From Mesaphorura yosii (Eukaryota; Arthropoda; Collembola; Poduromorpha; Tullbergiidae), in contig WIXG01000122.1 of the NCBI GenBank assembly GCA_009869945.1, positions 62,001-126,000 of the forward strand: DNA of 64,000 nt, read 5' to 3'. The notes under the pieces were generated by a model, which worked only from the letters and a program-made list of their open reading frames with translations, was not told where the DNA came from and ran no database searches. Shown here piece after piece: positions 7,495 to 63,897 of the stretch (position 1 is its first letter; the number at the start of each line of letters is the position of its first letter). The translations under genes and the position numbers were made by a program.

Positions 7495-8252
7495 CCCGAG
7501 TGCCTTACTTACGCTCTTTCCAATATTGCTACACTTAACCTAATCAGTTACGTATAAATAATTAATCTTCTTAAATCAGTAATTGTTCATTTTCACGGAG
7601 CTTTGCAGCAGAAGTTTTCCCTCTCGAGCTTGAAATCAGCAATGAGTGCATGTACTTAATTTAGCCGGTGATAGTCGTCTTAACGCTTCTCTGCTGGCTT
7701 TGGTTGATGAAATCTCGCATGTTCACGTGACGAGCCAAAACCGGGATTCTTGCACATGCATGTGAGCTGCTCAAAAAAGTATACTTATTACGACTACGTG
7801 AAAAACTAAAGTCGGAAGAATCACAGTGACGAAAACTTGGACTTAATTACTGGTTAAGCTAAATTTCGATAATTTTGCGGACTTTGAAACTTCAGCTCGT
7901 ATGTGGCTTGAATATTGACTGAAATCACAGCAGCAATTCGGTAAGTTATCTTGGTAAATTTTGGCCTGGATATTTAACCAGTGCTTTTACCCTTATCGTT
8001 GCTAAGTCCTAAACTAAGCCAAGGTTAGGTAGAGAATTTAACTAATTTTGGATCTGAAGATAAGAAGTAGTCACCAGAAGAAAGAAGAATTTCTTTTCCG
8101 GCATCGGTGCCTCTTCCTTTGGACCCTAGTCTGTAATGTAAGTCGAAGTTAACTACGCAATTACGATTTGCATGATAACGAAGCATTTAACGATGGTACT
8201 ATGTATCCTCGCAGCTTGAGGAGTTCAACAGTTACCCACGGACCTCCATCTG
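7495..8252. promoter_or_regulatory. Shared divergent promoter region of KANSL2 and PAM16
   Basis: These 758 bp separate the two start codons, which point away from each other, so a bidirectional promoter is likely. A GTAAGT donor at 8138 and a CTCGCAG acceptor ending at 8214 suggest a 77-bp intron in the PAM16 leader. If that intron is kept, a 15-codon upstream frame (8172-8219) precedes the PAM16 start. No TATA box stands out. Confidence 0.5.
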
Positions 8253-8699
8253 ATGGCAAAATACATTGTACAAATTGTGATTCTTGGAACTCAGGCGGTC
8301 GGCAAAGCGTTTGCTCGTGCGTTAAGACAAGAATATCAAGCGAGCCAGGAGGCTGCGTCAAGACGACGGACGGCGACGGCTGGATCTCGCGGAGCCTCAG
8401 CTGCATCAGACAGCAACGTCGCAGCCGAGAACATGCGAATGGGAATCTCGTTGGAGGAAGCGAGGCAGATTCTGAACGTGCCACCAGACGCCAAACCGGA
8501 GGAGATTGTGAAGAAGTTTGAACATTTATTCAATACAAACGACAAAGCAAAAGGTGGTTCGTTCTACCTTCAGTCGAAGGTGTACAGAGCGCAAGAACGA
8601 CTGCTGAAGGAGCACGGCATGTCACCCAGTCCCACGCCAAAAGACAAAGCTGAAGCCAACACGGAAGGGACCCGAACCACAGAGAGTCAGAAACCTTGA
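8253..8699 (+). CDS. PAM16: PAM16/TIMM16 (Magmas), mitochondrial import motor subunit
   Basis: A single-exon frame of 148 residues; human PAM16 has 125. PAM16 is a J-like protein of the presequence translocase motor on the matrix face of the inner membrane. It pairs with PAM18/TIMM14 and restrains its stimulation of mtHsp70. The start [20 protein letters not shown] and the following FARALRQEY are the conserved N-terminal membrane-contacting helix. The degenerate J domain runs from [12 protein letters not shown] to [17 protein letters not shown], without an HPD tripeptide, as expected. The C-terminal extension ([20 protein letters not shown]) is polar and probably disordered. An AATAAA at 8821-8826 is a likely polyadenylation signal. 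The gene is convergent with the cotransporter to its right. Confidence 0.97.
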
Positions 8700-9037: not shown

Positions 9038-12000
9038 CTAGGCGTAGTAGGCCCAGACGAAGGTGGCAACAACCATCAGCAGAATTGCATTGCCATTGAC
9101 GAATCTGAAATTTGAATAGCAACAAACCCAACTCTTGTATCACAATGTCACGCCAAATTCGATACCGAAATTATAGACTCTCACATGCGCCAGAATTTAG
9201 TTTCCTCCAAAAACTTGGCTGCGGCCGATGCCTCTTCTTCCGGTGACAGTTTTGGCTCCATGTCGATGACCGCAGCCGCGTTGGCCGATGACTCCAGCCC
9301 GCAGATGCAGTTAAACACTTTCCTGAGCCCACTGTCCGGTTTCGGCTCCTGTGCCGGTCCTGTGTGGAGTTTGAAATATTTTATTGCATTAAGTTACGTA
9401 CAAAAATTTGCGCATTTCTCTCCAGCACAGCACCTGTTTTCAAGTTGCCATTCTGTGCATTTTTGTCGTTACCATTATCTGCTACACTGCACTTGACGTC
9501 ATCATCGAGAGCCTGTCGCACCTCGTGGCTGTGTCGCGTCCAAAAAGTTAACCGGTGCAGCTGGAATTGAAGACTGCGTTAAGCACCCGAGTTTTGAGGT
9601 CCTTGTCTTGTACATGCAGGCTACCTTTTCCTCTGGGATTGGCTCTGTCATGTAACTGATGACGACTGTCACGGCGAGCGTGACCACAAAGAGAAAGATT
9701 CCGTAATGCAGGTAGTGAACGTCGCCGACGAATATTTTGATCCAATCAGGTCGCGTGTCAGCCTCGTCTAAAGTATCATACAAGCAAAAGCCTTTCTTTA
9801 CTCTGACTCCGTGTTGTGTCTGTCAACTTAACGCCAACGGAAGTCTAAGAATAACCGACCTGAGCCGCAAGTCGGAGGCGTGAATGTAAACTCGAGGATG
9901 AATCTGAAGAGCCCGAGAGCCAACCCAGTCATCAGTCCCCAGAACGCACCCTTTCAGAAAAACAGCAGGTCGAAATTAAAATTGCGATCAGTGCGAGCTA
10001 CAAACAGAAATCAGCACAGCATGCGTTCATGGCGTTGCAATTTTCGTGGCTGATTAGAATGAATGTGAATTCCACATCCACAAGCCAAGGCAAGAAAAGA
10101 AAGCATAATGTGAAGCGGATGACGCACGGTTTATTCAGTTTCACGCGGAGAAAGCTGGCGGAATTTCTGGGCTACGGGGACGACGACAACGAATGTTCAA
10201 AGAAAGTAAACAACAAACAAACCACAACGCAGCATGGCTCGGGCTGGCCAGTTGCCCTAATTAGTTGGCATAAGCAAGAAAGACCCAAGTTGTTAAACAA
10301 CATTGGCGTTGAAGCAGAAACAGAAGCATCGAATGTACAAATTGACATGCTACATGCCACATGGCACGTGTAAGTCAAAACAAGGCAATGAAGGCAAGGC
10401 AAATAAAAGAGATTATTAATAAAGCAGCACCTGCTCATTAGCTCGTGCGATAAACACGCCCGAAAAGAAGATGGCGGAGACAGGCGGCGCGAGGAGCGAG
10501 GTGATATTCTGAATGTATTTGAATAGTTGAGACTCTTTGTAGTTGATGATAATTGGGACCCAAAACAAACTCACAAACACCAACACAATCACGAACAACC
10601 TGTTGACCAAGTAAACAATGCAAACCGCTAAGATTCGTGACCTTCACCTTCGCCCTTCACGTCTCACGCGTGTGAGTGCGACAACGCGAAATTCGAGACC
10701 CGAGAAAGCGTGCGTGTGCGGAACATAGAACCCGTAAGCCGCAAATTCATTAGAGGTGACACGGCGACATGACGTTTTACCGGTTCATTCGTTCTGCGCA
10801 TGAAAAATGCCAGGAGGAAGACTGCGGTGACGGGCGGCGACAAGAAATTAGAAACTTAAAGAAAATAATGAAACAAAATACATCAACAAAAATTGGGTCA
10901 ATCGTCAACTTAAATTCAGAATAATTCACCTTGCTGGATGTAAACAAAGAGCTGAGACGTTTTCAGCTCTTTCAGAACCGGAACCCAGAGAACGGAAATG
11001 ACGAGAAGAACTAAAACTGATAATCTTTGAGGAAAAGAGAAAGGAACGAAAATAAAATGTCGGGAATTTTCGAGTTTCGGCTTGCCCTTCCAAAATTTTA
11101 CGATTTTACCTGCCAACGAGCAGGAGCTCCGTGTCGCTCGGATTCTTCCTGATTCGAGTCCAGATATCAATGGTAAATATTGTTGAACTGGAGTTGAATA
11201 TGGAAGTCAGTGAACTCATAAGGGCGGCCATCATCACAGCCAGCATCATTCCAGATAGTCCTGCAAAGAATTGGTGGCAAGATTTGTCGAGTACTGGTTG
11301 GGCAGCATAGTTGACGTTCAGCAAGCGTGGTGTTTCTGTTCTTAGTACTCACCGACTGGCATGAGTCGGAGGACCAGTTCCGCATACGCAATGTTGGTGC
11401 AACCAGTTCGTGACCCGCATACTTTGAAGCAAATGTCCGGGTTCGCACAAGCAATGCGGTCGGTGTACAGAACGCGGGCTGCCATGCCGGGAAATACGAG
11501 CAGGAACATCGGCAAAAGTTTTAAATAGCCGGCGAGGATGCAGCCGCCTTTCGCATTGCACATGTTCCTGGAAGCAAGGGCCCGTTGCACGATGACCTGG
11601 TCCGAGCACCAGTACCAGATTGAAGAAATCGTCATCCCAATGACCACACCGGTCCAGGGCAAGTCTGACTCTCCGGGGACGACGCTGCGGAAGAGATGCA
11701 GTGCGTCAGGAGGAACTGCGCCACACGTCTTGTTGAATTCGTCCATGATCGCTCCGGTCGTGGGATTCGACTCCTCCATGTACTTTCGAAGAAGTTCGTT
11801 GTAGCCGCCTACTGCGTCAAATGCTGCAAGGAACGAGAACGGGAACGTCAGTCCGCAATCGGCGACATTCTACGAACAATTTTCAACCATCTCTTACCAA
11901 GAGCGCTCAGAATAATTGCTCCAATCAGCATCAGCACGGTCTGCACGAAGTCTGTCCAAATCACCGCCGTTAAGCCACCCGCGATCGTGAAAAGTGCGGC

Positions 12001-24733: not shown

Positions 24734-26960
24734 TTAGAGTACTTGCTAATTTTAGAAATTATCGAATTATGGTATTTATTCGCCATGTTCAGGTCGTGTT
24801 ACAGAATCCAGAACGAACCTTCGATTTTAGTAAACTACCTTACCAAATCTTCATCCAGAAACTCAAACATTTCCTGAAGGAAATATATTGTATTTTCTAA
24901 ACGCTGCGTCTACGACTGTATTGTTATTTACTTTACTTTGCTAGAACGTTATAGTTTTACGGACTACATTACAATGTGAATTCAAATCAGTTATTGTTGT
25001 GCCGGGCCACAGCCAGCCTGTCCCAGGAAATATTCCTCAACTACTAATTACCGGCTCTTTAGCCATCGCTATTCGCATATCTGAGTATATAATGCATTAA
25101 TGAAGTGTGTCATGATTATCGCTGTCCCTCGATTGAGTGCAATTTGGGAAAGCGGAGTCCTGCTACTCGAATCAAGACTGCACACCAAGAATGAAGTGGC
25201 GAGTAAAATGTTAATGGACAGAAGATTACTTGGGTTTTTGATATAAGCAATACACGTTTGATTATTATTGATCATCATCTTTTTGTATTCATCATACAGT
25301 GTATTCTATTTTGTTATCAGCGTCAGTTGATCGTGCAGAATGTGGCAAGCTATTCAATGAGGGAAATAAAAATCAGCGTTTTTTGGCATCACATTTTTAT
25401 ATTACAAAATTGCAATTAATTACACGTTAGGTTTCAGTTTGCCCCAAGCCTTTTTGAGTCGCCACTCAGCTTAAAATGACAGTCGGGACTGCGATTGGGC
25501 AGTTTCCCGTAAAATTCGAACCGTCAGATGGCCAGCAGCTTCAATGTTGAATCAGTCGTGAAAGTCTGACGTCCGTTTTGTAGAAGACGCTGATTGCTTT
25601 GCAATGCGTCCGTCCTTCTGCAATGGCCACGGCGTCCGAATCAAATCCAGTTATTTCAGATCGCTGCATCTTTTCATCATTTGACTCCACTGCACGCTGC
25701 GCCGCTGAGTTTCCCCACATTTCGATAATCTCGAGCGAAAGCCATTTCCTCGGTTGACTTAGTAATGGCAGTTGTAATACCCTGATTACAAGTCTCAACT
25801 CTGTTCTGCTCTTTCTGCTTCATCGTCTCCGCCGTCGATTCGTCAGAGCCCAATCCCTTTATATTATTATTATACGCGAGTTGCTTTCTCTACTGCGTCG
25901 TCCACAAAGACAAAAGACGGCGACTGAATTTTGGGAAATATTTCCATGGTCATAATCGTCGAGCAGTGGTGGCTGAGTTTCTGCATCAAATTCCAGTTTT
26001 GCGACTCGCGCAAGAAAGAAAGTTTAATATTTGCTGCTGTAACCAAGAACGCCAAGAACGGGTAACCAAGTTGGCAGAGAAAGAGACATTTTCTTCTTGG
26101 CTGAGCAAAAGAGAAAGAAGATGATGATGCTTTCGCTTTTGGCTTTTGCTGATGGGAAAGAAAAAGATTCGGCACGGCACGGGACGACGAAGAAAGCAGA
26201 GCGAGAGCGAAGCTGCAACAGTGTGAGAGAAGCTGCTCGGCGTTTATGCACAGTCCAATGGTTCGATTGGGTCCAACCCATGACTCTGCCCTCAATCTCA
26301 TCTCAACCCAATAATCGCACGGCCACGGAAGCCAACAAATAAAAAGGCTTTTACAATAATATGAATCATCATCACGGTCATCATCTGCCTCCAATGCTCT
26401 TTACTTAATAACCATTTCTTTCTTTTACGCCGAAATTGAGGAATAAGCTGTTGGACTTTAAGTGTATTAACAAATCCAACACCGCAGCATCGCAACGCGA
26501 GGAGCCAACGGCCAAGCCACGACAGTAGCGTGCTCAGAAAACTCGGATCGACTTAATTTCGGGCGACGCGACGTTCGAAAGATGATATCAGACTTCAGTT
26601 GACTGGATGTGGGATCGAACTGGACTCGGCTTTGCATTGGCAGTGAGACGGACACAGAGTGAACAGGGCCAAGATCGACTCTGGAATCTGACTGCTCCGT
26701 GGGACGCAAGTATAAAGTCGTCGCGTGCGTTGCAATAATCTGCGCATTCTTCCATTCTCATCGATGAATTATACGACGAGCGTCTTTTTCGGTGTATTGC
26801 ATTGTGAAACGTGAGACATAGCGGTTTTCACATTTGGTGTGTACGTCGTACATTGTGAATCTTTTACAATTTTTGTCAAGATTAGTCCCAAATTACACGC
26901 AGAATTGTTAGACTAAATTGTGTTTCGTGAAAGTTTCCCGTGTCGAAACCTTGATTTAAG
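24734..26960. other. Cyclin T 3' flank and MNX upstream region
   Basis: The first 640 bp are probably cyclin T 3' UTR up to the AATAAA at 25365. The remainder is upstream of MNX. Minus frames at 25798-25541 and 26394-25870 are low-complexity Ser/Leu-rich and show no family motif. Confidence 0.5.
26711..26717 (+). promoter_or_regulatory. Candidate TATA box of MNX
   Basis: TATAAAG lies 244 bp upstream of the MNX start codon, preceded by a GC-richer stretch. It predicts a start site near 26740-26750, giving a leader of roughly 210-220 nt. Position and consensus are the only support. Confidence 0.45.
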
Positions 26961-39042
<12,082 letters not shown>

Positions 39043-52766: not shown

Positions 52767-52782
52767 GTTAATTTTGTATAAA
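52767..52782 (+). promoter_or_regulatory. Acceptor-like site just before the YRDC start
   Basis: A pyrimidine-rich run (CCCTCTTTCTTCC) followed by GTTTGCGCAG ends at 52767, 14 bases before the YRDC ATG. It could close a short leader intron or receive a spliced leader. The sequence alone cannot decide. Confidence 0.3.
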
Positions 52783-53789
52783 TGGTGCAGCAAGTGATTA
52801 GACAATTAGTGTTCAAGCAGAATCATGTACTGCTAAAATTCAAGCAAGTATTCGCAAAATCTGTTAATCCCCTGCACAAGTGCTTATCAAGCCTGCCTCA
52901 ATCAGCGACCGAAACAAAATCAGCCGGTGTCAAAATCGACAAGAAAATTCAAAGCATCAAAATCCGTGACGAGGGACGAAGCAAAAGCAATAACGTAGAA
53001 AGCTTGAATAATTCCTGTGCCAACATTGTTATGAGTGCCCATGAAAATGCTATGCCTTCAATAATTCATCTCGCAGCCACCAACTCATTGAGTTCGGCAA
53101 GAATTGGGGGAGAAATTTTGAAAAGTGGGGGCATAATTGCAACTCCTACAGATACTGTGTACGGGTTGGCGGCGGACGCGCAGAATATTCAAGCAGTAGC
53201 AAAATTATACGAAATCAAAGGAAGAAACCAGGAGAAGCCGATTGCCATTTGTGTGTCAGAAATTAGTCAGTTGTCAACCTGGGCGAAGGTCACTGTTTCC
53301 AACGAGCTGCTGAATGATTTCCTTCCTGGTCCTGTCACATTAGTCTTTGAAAGGAAGCCAGCACTGAACAAAGAGTTGAACCCTGAGACAGATTTAATCG
53401 GAATTCGAATCCCGAACCACACGTTCATTCGTCAGTTGGCGAAGGAGCACGGGGGCCCACTCGCACTCACGAGTGCAAATCCATCTTCGCAGCCAAGCAC
53501 TCTTTCACCGGATGAATTCCGCTCCCTGTGGCCTTATCTAGACTGCGTATTCGACGGCGGGGATCTACGAAATATTCATCCCAATCCACATCTTCCGGAT
53601 TCGCAAAAGCAGCATTCCAACAACAACCTTCAAGACGAGAGGATTGTCCGAGCGGGCTCGACTGTGATTAATTTGTCCCAAGTAGGGTACTTTAGTATTA
53701 TTCGAGAGGGCTCCGCCTACAAAACCTGTGTGCAGCTGCTGAAAGAAAAGTATCACTTGATCGAAAAGAACGATTTTGATCCCAGATGA
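52782..53789 (+). CDS. YRDC: YRDC threonylcarbamoyl-AMP synthase
   Basis: A single-exon gene of 335 residues; human YRDC has 279. It makes threonylcarbamoyl-AMP from threonine, bicarbonate and ATP, the first step of tRNA t6A37 synthesis, and hands it to KEOPS in the cytosol or OSGEPL1 in mitochondria. The YrdC/Sua5 core starts near residue 105: GGIIATPTDTVYGLAADA, the KGRNQEKPIAICV basic cluster that binds substrate, FLPGPVTLVF, DLIGIRIPNH, LALTSANPSS and IVRAGSTVINL. The first 90 residues are basic and Ser-rich with few acidic residues at the start (VIRQLVFKQNHVLLKFKQ), compatible with a mitochondrial targeting peptide. It is sandwiched between POLR3K and the PLEKHM1-like gene with very short spacers. 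Confidence 0.97.
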   Translation: MVQQVIRQLVFKQNHVLLKFKQVFAKSVNPLHKCLSSLPQSATETKSAGVKIDKKIQSIKIRDEGRSKSNNVESLNNSCANIVMSAHENAMPSIIHLAATNSLSSARIGGEILKSGGIIATPTDTVYGLAADAQNIQAVAKLYEIKGRNQEKPIAICVSEISQLSTWAKVTVSNELLNDFLPGPVTLVFERKPALNKELNPETDLIGIRIPNHTFIRQLAKEHGGPLALTSANPSSQPSTLSPDEFRSLWPYLDCVFDGGDLRNIHPNPHLPDSQKQHSNNNLQDERIVRAGSTVINLSQVGYFSIIREGSAYKTCVQLLKEKYHLIEKNDFDPR

Positions 53790-53862
53790 ATTGACTTTTA
53801 TTGTGAAGAACTAGGATTTAGCATTAAGAATTAACTAAAACCAACGCGCACATAACTTGAAA

Positions 53863-56800
53863 ATGTCCATGCTACGTCGAGTGCTGGACCGGGAAGCCTT
53901 AGTCAAGAGTAGTTTAATAGAATCGCTGAGAGAGTGTGTCAAGGAACTGCAGCTACGAGATGCTGGCGAAAGAGGTCAAGCCCTAACGAACGACGAAATA
54001 ACCAATAACCTTTGCTGGATCCTGGAGGCGCTATTTATCCATGGACTCAAGAATCCGTTCCTGAAGTCTGTCTCCTCTGCGTTGGCCTCTCGGACAATCA
54101 CTGAGCCTCAGCTCCCTGAACCATCCTTCTGGGAATTTATTCTCATATTCTGTCACCATGAAGTCATCATTCAGATCAACAATTTTACCCACATCCGGAC
54201 TGACATTGGGAGATGCAGAGCCTGGTTGAGGCTCGCAATCAACGATGGGCTCCTCATCAGTTACCTGCAACTCATTCTGTCAGACAAGACGACAGTCAAA
54301 GATTACTACAAGCCAAACGCTTTCCTTCGTGATGCAGAAAAATGTGATATCCTCAAAAGTTACCTGTACGGGATCGAATCGTACGATTTTCAGTTGGCAT
54401 GTAACTCCAGTTTGCTGAACACGTGGAACGTGCAGCCACTGAGCATGGTTGGTTTGTGGGTCCAAACTGACCATTCCATCGCGCAGGGAATCGATGTGGC
54501 CGAAAATATGGACTCGAAGGACCTGCAAGCTATACCGCAGCTTAGGAAGGCAACTCCTCCGAAACCATCCTTCTTCACTTCCATCGAGTCAAGGGTTCCT
54601 TTGCTGGAAGAAGACGAAGCTCTTCGAGTGATCCTGTCGTCTGCGTCTCGAGGATCCGAAACCTCGTCTGCACAAGCTTCAACCTCCTCAAGCAGAAAGA
54701 ATTCTGATGGTTCTTCGTCATATACTCCTCCTACAAAGCCGCATCCCTCCACTTTGTTATCTGTAGGCGCTTCAAGTTTAGCTCCTAATCAGTCTGTCGG
54801 GAAGAAGGCGATTCAGCGTGGAAGAAAAACTAGTCGAGAAGAAACGTCCGCGAAAGGAGCGGGTACAAATATCCAAGAAGAGGCAGATAAAGTCGACAGT
54901 AACAATGTCTCCAGCTTGAAGAAACAAGTTCAAGTTCCACCTGTCAGTAAAGTTATCTTGTCCCCAGAACAAACCGGCTCTCAACTTACAACATCCACTT
55001 CCACCGCGAAAGTTGCAGCTGCGACATCCCCACAATCGCGACTGAAAGAGCAAAAACCCAACGCGAGCGTTGTGGAAAGCGTTCAAACGGCCCACTCCGC
55101 CAAATTCAGCAGCGACGGGACTGCTCCAATTGCAATCCGGCAAAACTCGACAAATTCGATGGTGACTTCGACCGAGGAAGACAGCTATGCTGCTTTGTTT
55201 CACAGCTACAATCGTGACAGCGTAATCGGAACACCGATAACTGTGGGCAGTTTCATAGGAAGCCAGTTCAGCTCCGGATACGGAGGAGGAAATCAACTTG
55301 GTAACGAAACCTCAACTTCCTCCGAGTTGGATCCCGCGCTAGGATCCAGCGTTGAGGAAAATCACAGTGTGAGTTGGTGCCGATAATATTAATGTGTGCA
55401 GTTTTGATTTGCATGACTAGCGCAATATTCTTTGAGCTTACAATTTAACTTTCTCCTGCTTAATTTACCTTACTCGAAAGTAGAGCCTTCGAGAATTTAC
55501 TCAAAATGAGTTCTGGACAGTGGAACCTTGTCAAATTTCCAAGTATTCCATTTCCAGCCGTTTTAAGTGAAACCGTTGGCAATATTTTGGAAAGCTTTTC
55601 GTTCACAAGCACGGAGCCTTGTCATGCTTCTGTAAATGTATCGGTAATTATTTTTAGTTTTGCTTGACGCTTGCTAGTTGCTTGTCCCCACAAACTCCTT
55701 TGGTGATGGTGATTGTCTTCCTTGAGCTACTTTGGTGAGCGGTGTGAGCGTGTACGGCACGTTAAATTAAATCATCGACCATGAGAAGAAATTAAAACTT
55801 CACACCAAAGAAAAACGTTCATTGGATCGATCCTGGACCTCAAATGCCCAACTGCTAAAGCTTAATGTGCCGGCAGCCTTGTTGTGTTGACCTGTTGACC
55901 GTCTCAAGAAATGCCACTCATTTTTGTTGTTTCTCCCAATTCTCAGAACTCCACTACACCCGTGGACATTTCGTGCTATGAAATTCTCGATTCAGAATTT
56001 TTATCCAATGGACTTTTTTCTGACATGGTAAAATCCATGTATTCAAGTACATTTTTCATTTTTTATATTCTCAATTCTCCTTCTCAATAACCTTTTCAAA
56101 ATATTTTGTATTTGTGCGAATGAACACAAATTAGACGCATTTGATTAAACTAAGCTAAGCGAGGATTTGTTCCTAATAAGTGTGGATTGTTTCTTATTCC
56201 AGCTCTCACAAATTGAATTGTATTCACAGCGAATTCCGTCGGAAATGGGACTGGATGTACAAAATTATCGATGCCAAAACTGCGAAAGACAAATTGGCAT
56301 GATATATGGTCCAGCCAGGTAATGCCCAATCTTACAATCTTATGTCTTATCTTAAATTGAATTTATGTTTGTCTCTGTTCTCATAGGATTTGTGCTCTAA
56401 CTGGATATTATTATTGCCCTGAATGTCACTCCAACGACGAATCCGTGATCCCAGCAAGAATACTACTAAATTGGGATTTCACACGCTACAATGTTTGCAA
56501 AACGTCAAAGGAGTTTCTTGAAGAAGTCATTGAGAAGCCGTTGTTTAATCTAAAAGAAATCAATGAGAAATTGTACCGAGAAGTGGACGAATGTGCGGAG
56601 TTGAGCGTACGTTTTTCAACTTTTCCACGTTTATTCCCTACTTTGAATATTTTGTAATTTATCCCTCAGACGATTCGCACAAAGCTGAACTCGATATCAA
56701 TCTATTTACGCACATGTAAAGAGCCAATCATGTCCCAGTTCACAAAGGAAATATGGCCAAAGGACTATTTGTATGAGGACATTCACACGTACTCTTTGTC

Positions 56801-58668: not shown

Positions 58669-63897
<5,229 letters not shown>

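Follow-up and report, generated by a model that had tools for sequence, protein, structure and literature searches.

Can splicing of a duplicated cassette let a single sodium/sugar cotransporter gene encode two proteins that differ in one membrane segment? The question is raised by a gene on the minus strand of a 64,000-nucleotide stretch of the Mesaphorura yosii genome; the whole stretch is referred to here as the window. A complete SGLT-type gene was pieced together in the window (15754-9038, minus strand), with homology and GT-AG sites as guides to a gene model drawn up by eye. Upstream, nine coding exons are common to both forms, match SGLT1 and SGLT2 and lie between 15754 and 11110 (15754-15611, 13384-13322, 13226-13153, 13075-13036, 12404-12337, 12275-12179, 12096-11898, 11823-11353 and 11260-11110). 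Their common coding length is 1307 nt, with a remainder of 2 and without stops. Five common downstream coding exons complete the assembled gene model between 9950 and 9038 (9950-9860, 9767-9625, 9560-9434, 9359-9185 and 9104-9038), the last of which ends in TAG. The shared donor at 11110 and the shared acceptor at 9950 enclose a variable region, which holds two homologous 169-nt cassettes, A and B.

The identity of the gene was investigated by comparison of the A form over its full length with chains in the PDB, while B was compared as a segment of 92 residues that included its flanks. The A-form protein matched SGLT1 (7sl8, E 5.7e-216; 7wmv, E 9.8e-210) and SGLT2 (8hb0, E 1.2e-208) over nearly the whole length, and the Pfam SSF family (PF00474, E 2.5e-129). 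We take these three chains to be the human proteins. The B segment found the same SGLT1 and SGLT2 chains, with a best E of 5.3e-27. The earlier identification of an SGLT-type gene is therefore borne out, with both chains found at E of about 1e-208 or better for the A form and found again with the B segment. The product is a predicted SGLT-clade cotransporter, which would carry out sodium-driven transport of sugar. A full-length search of the genome returned weak matches at other loci, with 24 % identity for the longest, 28, 32, 43 and 45 % for shorter ones, and a best E of 4.9e-10. The gene thus looks like the only SGLT-clade gene in the genome, within an exon-by-exon search of the best candidates; by eye, some of the other loci resemble SMVT/SMCT-type SLC5 genes. 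Two adjoining SSF-family loci on contig C137 (L001 and L003) have long unbroken frames, one of 504 residues and one of at least 427, in contrast to the many introns of the SGLT gene, and are possible retrocopies or tandem duplicates.

Cassette A consists of two exons. The first, A1 (11024-10930, 95 nt), has the acceptor TTTTCCTCAAAG and the donor GTGAAT, and the second, A2 (10854-10781, 74 nt), has the donor CCG/GTAAAA. They are separated by an intron of 75 nt (10929-10855) that has no counterpart in B and that introduces in-frame stops when retained. After an intron of 181 nt (10780-10600) comes cassette B, a single exon of 169 nt (10599-10431) with the acceptor TTGGTCAACAG and the donor CAG/GTGCTG. 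The intron from B to the common downstream exon measures 480 nt (10430-9951), or 830 nt when counted from A2. The two-exon structure of A and the one-exon structure of B imply that, once the cassette had been duplicated, either A acquired an intron or B lost one. A preliminary description of this DNA had presented two cassettes of 169 nt, each entered in phase 2 and left in phase 0 and matching at 27 of 57 residues. The lengths, phases and coordinates were all correct when re-read in the sequence, and the 27 matches were recovered when counted from the in-frame translation. One point needs clarifying: A is not a single exon, its length being the sum of 95 and 74 nt. The four junctions listed there (11110 to 11024, 11110 to 10599, 10781 to 9950 and 10431 to 9950) are right as given, and the internal A junction, 10930 to 10854, must be added to them.

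The reading frame separates the combinations tested. With A alone or B alone, 692 codons are open to the natural TAG. Joining A to B causes a frameshift, with stops that fall inside B, and omission of both cassettes shifts the frame to an early stop. The same outcome, a frameshift and an early stop, was found for A1 only, A2 only, A1 with B and A2 with B. A single protein with both cassettes was considered as a candidate product and is ruled out by the A-to-B frameshift. Every junction of both cassettes has GT-AG sites, with phase 2 on entry and phase 0 on exit. Equal length, homology, compatible splice sites, identical phases and the frameshift with both or neither together strongly imply mutually exclusive use, as had been proposed, and mutually exclusive splicing, predicted here from gene anatomy, is the best reading of the two cassettes.

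Criteria by which mutually exclusive exons are predicted comprise length, reading frame with splice sites, and homology (Pillmann et al. 2011, PMC3228551). A and B agree in all three. According to the same study, such features are shared by 90 of the 16180 exons on the Drosophila X chromosome that are not mutually exclusive (PMC3228551), a base rate that gives a low prior for a false call. In human, 377 clusters (60 %) are reported as frame-incompatible if joined, and reads that join the exons are reported for 83 (22 %) of those (PMC5740500). The cassettes resemble the clusters described in these two sources (PMC3228551; Hatje et al. 2017, PMC5740500) in being neighbouring, homologous, equal-length internal exons that are incompatible in frame. 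Their identity of 47 % is close to an average of 49.1 % given in PMC5740500, apparently for pairs that carry disease mutations. They differ from known clusters in that alternative A is itself made up of two exons and in that usage is predicted from DNA. SLC25A3 and SLC39A14, transporters of other families in which splicing likewise swaps a homologous segment, are named as genes with mutually exclusive exons (PMC5740500). The part that is swapped here is, in contrast, TM9-TM10 of an SLC5 protein, including a gating helix. The variation that sits between separate genes in human SGLT1 (SLC5A1) and SGLT2 (SLC5A2) sits here between cassettes of one gene. A further transporter with mutually exclusive exons is, we believe, SLC12A1/NKCC2. 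SLC5 does not occur in the main text of PMC5740500, and neither 'transporter' nor 'SLC' occurs in the paper on the Kassiopeia database. No report of an SLC5 gene with mutually exclusive exons was found in the open-licence literature, as far as titles and the beginnings of abstracts reveal, which agrees with the earlier remark that the arrangement is unusual for such a gene. The type of splicing is already known; its predicted location in an SLC5 gene appears to be new and is telling for mechanism.

The likeness of the cassettes was compared with chance. A and B are identical at 92 of 171 bases and differ at 79. Identities by codon position were 28, 46 and 18 of 57 for the first, second and third positions, a pattern of coding constraint. 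Ten shifted alignments (-5 to +5 without 0) gave at most seven matching residues. When 79 random base changes were put into either cassette (20000 trials each), 27 residue matches were reached in no trial from either starting point (best 26, mean 15 to 16), and the frame was still free of stops in 2681 of 20000 trials starting from B and 2814 of 20000 starting from A. Searches of the window detected B with A1 (51.6 % identity over 31 residues, E 1.2e-6) and with A2 (43.5 % over 23 residues, E 4e-4), and a genome search with A plus the downstream exon found B at E 2.8e-11. For the remaining exons of the gene, the window contains no second copy at E <0.01, the best other match being 0.049. There was no third cassette within the window or, at E up to 10, in the 93-Mb genome among the best three candidates for each query (A plus the downstream exon, or B); in these genome searches the best three candidates matched only the two cassettes and that exon.

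By alignment, the cassette corresponds to residues 427-483 of SGLT1 and would span TM9, the outer loop that follows it and the greater part of the gating helix TM10, with helix ends that are approximate. The preliminary description had placed it at TM10-11. In the numbering of the structure papers the segment is TM9-TM10; the label TM10-11 presumably follows an older numbering of helices from 1 to 14. TM9 belongs to the hash domain, and TM5 and TM10 are the gating helices, according to a review (PMC12605011), while F453, D454 and Q457 are assigned to M10 of SGLT1 (PMC9616851). F453, Y455, I456 and Q457 are present in both cassettes, so that the Tyr-Ile-Gln sugar site attributed to the segment is carried by A and B alike. 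Q457 is described as touching the glucose part of inhibitors (PMC9616851, PMC10803289). Again as first described, A has Ser at residue 460 and B has Thr. At residues 459-460, A has Val-Ser as in SGLT2 and B has Ile-Thr as in SGLT1 chain 7wmv. S460 versus T460 is among the residues reported to set the C6-OH pocket of SGLT2 apart from that of SGLT1 (PMC10803289). However, SGLT1 chains 7sl8 and 7sla also have Val-Ser at these positions, and the difference at residue 460 is therefore a mild one. Residue 454 is Val in A and Lys in B and is Asp in both human proteins; in human SGLT1, D454A is reported to make a long-tailed inhibitor less potent (PMC9616851). The change at 454 and the exchange of a large part of TM9 and TM10 may outweigh that at 460.

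The two cassettes are about equally similar to the human proteins, with 30 of 57 residues of A and 28 of 57 of B identical to SGLT1, and the same numbers to SGLT2. Among the 33 columns that are identical in both human proteins, A keeps 23 and B keeps 21, with 20 in common; nine are lost by both, one by A only and three by B only. In comparison with human SGLT1, the 154 residues upstream match at 95 positions and the 28 residues downstream at 14. Both cassettes are thus less SGLT1-like than the upstream stretch and similar in this respect to the downstream one.

To place these columns in a wider set, the two human segments were aligned with 22 bacterial loci (n=24). Relatives are encoded by 22 of the 45 prokaryotic stretches that matched, with 31-37 % identity in the best segment, and all 22 served for conservation only; the search of viral contigs returned no relatives. 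Four residues, W440, F453, P465 and R479, do not vary among the 24 sequences, and both cassettes retain them. Q457, present in both human proteins and both cassettes, is Asn in all 22 bacterial loci. Q445 is invariant in 24 of 24 and is lost in A and B, while V470, also invariant in the set, is kept in A and is Ile in B. Of 21 columns with at least 80 % conservation, one of which (442) is filled by the two human sequences only, A keeps eight and B keeps nine. These columns give no hint of a difference in decay between the cassettes, and they indicate that both have moved from the bacterial pattern. In a maximum-likelihood tree of the 57 positions, A groups with B to the exclusion of the other sequences (ultrafast bootstrap 89). 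With 57 positions and long branches, this weakly suggests that the duplication postdates the separation from the vertebrate lineage.

Splice sites and introns were investigated for devices that could enforce exclusion. All of the sites are GT-AG, and none resembles the U12 type, judged by its consensus. For RNA pairing among the three introns, the observed energy was reached by 9, 11 and 82 of 100 shuffles, and docking/selector pairing was rejected as lying within the shuffle range. One inverted repeat (10505-10517 with 10911-10923) is within chance, as 10 of 40 base shuffles reached the observed count. Steric interference is defined by a distance of <50 bp from donor to branch point (PMC5740500); it is unlikely here, given that A2 and B are 181 nt apart. 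No active exclusion device was found among the three types checked (steric, U2/U12 and intron pairing), and frame incompatibility is present. Active devices are not required; steric interference is reported for 9 % and U2/U12 incompatibility for 0.79 % of human clusters (PMC5740500). Scores from a crude leave-one-out model built from the splice sites of this gene were 6.12 and 12.29 for the acceptors of A (pyrimidines at 16 and 14 of 18 positions) and 3.38 for that of B (11 of 18). The donor of B scored 4.42, against 5.45 for A1 and 6.87 for A2. Both B sites are below most sites of the gene, with three other donors and four other acceptors lower still. The weaker scores of B suggest that A may be the default choice and B the regulated one.

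Such scores also bear on whether only one cassette functions, the other being a relic or a rarely used exon left by the duplication. The splice sites of B, on the weak side for the gene, speak for a relic. However, neither cassette has a stop in its 57 codons, both have intact GT-AG sites and fit the phases, and they are about equally near to the human SGLTs (30 and 28 of 57). As random change left a stop-free frame in only 2681 (B) and 2814 (A) of 20000 trials and gave 27 matches in none, a relic or rarely used exon is improbable. Another reading of the same frameshifts is regulated unproductive splicing, in which one protein isoform dominates, and transcripts with both cassettes or with neither serve to switch the gene off by nonsense-mediated decay. 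Translation of the form with A and B, and of the form with neither, would indeed end prematurely, ahead of the last exons, and the 181-nt intron between A and B is long enough to splice. A pure poison exon, however, need not keep a homologous, frame-compatible membrane segment of 57 residues that includes residues invariant among relatives, which makes this reading highly improbable; an off switch and mutually exclusive splicing can coexist. The division of the assembly into 1127 contigs also raises the question of whether two haplotypes or paralogues were joined in tandem. Such an artefact is barely conceivable, since 79 of the 171 bases are different in A and B, far beyond alleles, both fit the same phases, and neither the window nor the best candidates in the genome include another close copy of the flanking exons.

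It is very likely that this one SGLT-clade gene gives rise to two proteins of 692 residues each, the copies of a duplicated cassette being spliced in a mutually exclusive way. Splicing from the donor at 11110 would lead either to A1, followed by A2, or to B, and A2 or B would then join the acceptor at 9950; both cassettes would be in use, in separate transcripts. Exclusivity would be enforced at least by the frame, because transcripts with both or neither would meet an early stop and probably undergo nonsense-mediated decay. The swap would exchange TM9 of the hash domain, the outer loop between TM9 and TM10, and most of TM10, with Q457 and F453 retained. The retention of these two residues while TM9 and TM10 are exchanged suggests that sugar transport would be tuned rather than abolished. 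Cassette choice may affect turnover, apparent affinity or the pocket for the C6 hydroxyl (Ser460/Thr460), and also the outer vestibule (Val454/Lys454). More tentatively, the splicing of one gene could possibly supply two cotransporters with different gating helices, as vertebrates do by separate genes, with SGLT2-like (Ser460) and SGLT1-like (Thr460) C6 pockets, Val or Lys at 454, and affinity or capacity set per tissue. If mutually exclusive splicing does operate here, the gene would amount to a natural experiment on a sodium/glucose cotransporter: TM9 and the gating helix TM10 would be swapped while the rest is held constant, which would bear directly on the role of TM10 in sugar recognition and in alternating access. 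The gene would also represent transporter diversity by a route other than gene duplication, as no second gene as near to SGLT1 was found among the best candidates in the genome.

Rfam and tRNA scans of the window gave no matches. A search for Chitin_bind_4 gave 66 matches and one for nematode cuticle collagen gave 0; together they suggest an arthropod or close kin, although the zero does not by itself prove absence. Several protein-coding frames were observed beside the SGLT gene. A gene for Pam16 of the mitochondrial import motor (8220-8699, plus strand; single open frame, Pfam E 2.5e-38) faces the SGLT gene tail to tail, and approximately 340 bases separate the end of its frame from the stop codon of the SGLT gene. 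Also on the plus strand, a Sua5/YrdC-type frame (52782-53789) is followed by a RUN-domain frame (53839-55386), and the tight spacing within this region (52782-55386) might mean a common transcript. A further plus-strand frame (38215-39042) has a homeodomain end just below the Pfam cut-off (22.5 versus 22.9 bits). Another (26955-28085, plus strand) has no Pfam match and contains a stretch of 14 residues that resembles what we take to be the start of an Mnx-type homeobox protein. The start of a protein kinase domain was detected at 62783-63757 on the minus strand, below the Pfam cut-off (25.3 versus 31.7 bits) and MAPKAP kinase-like by eye.
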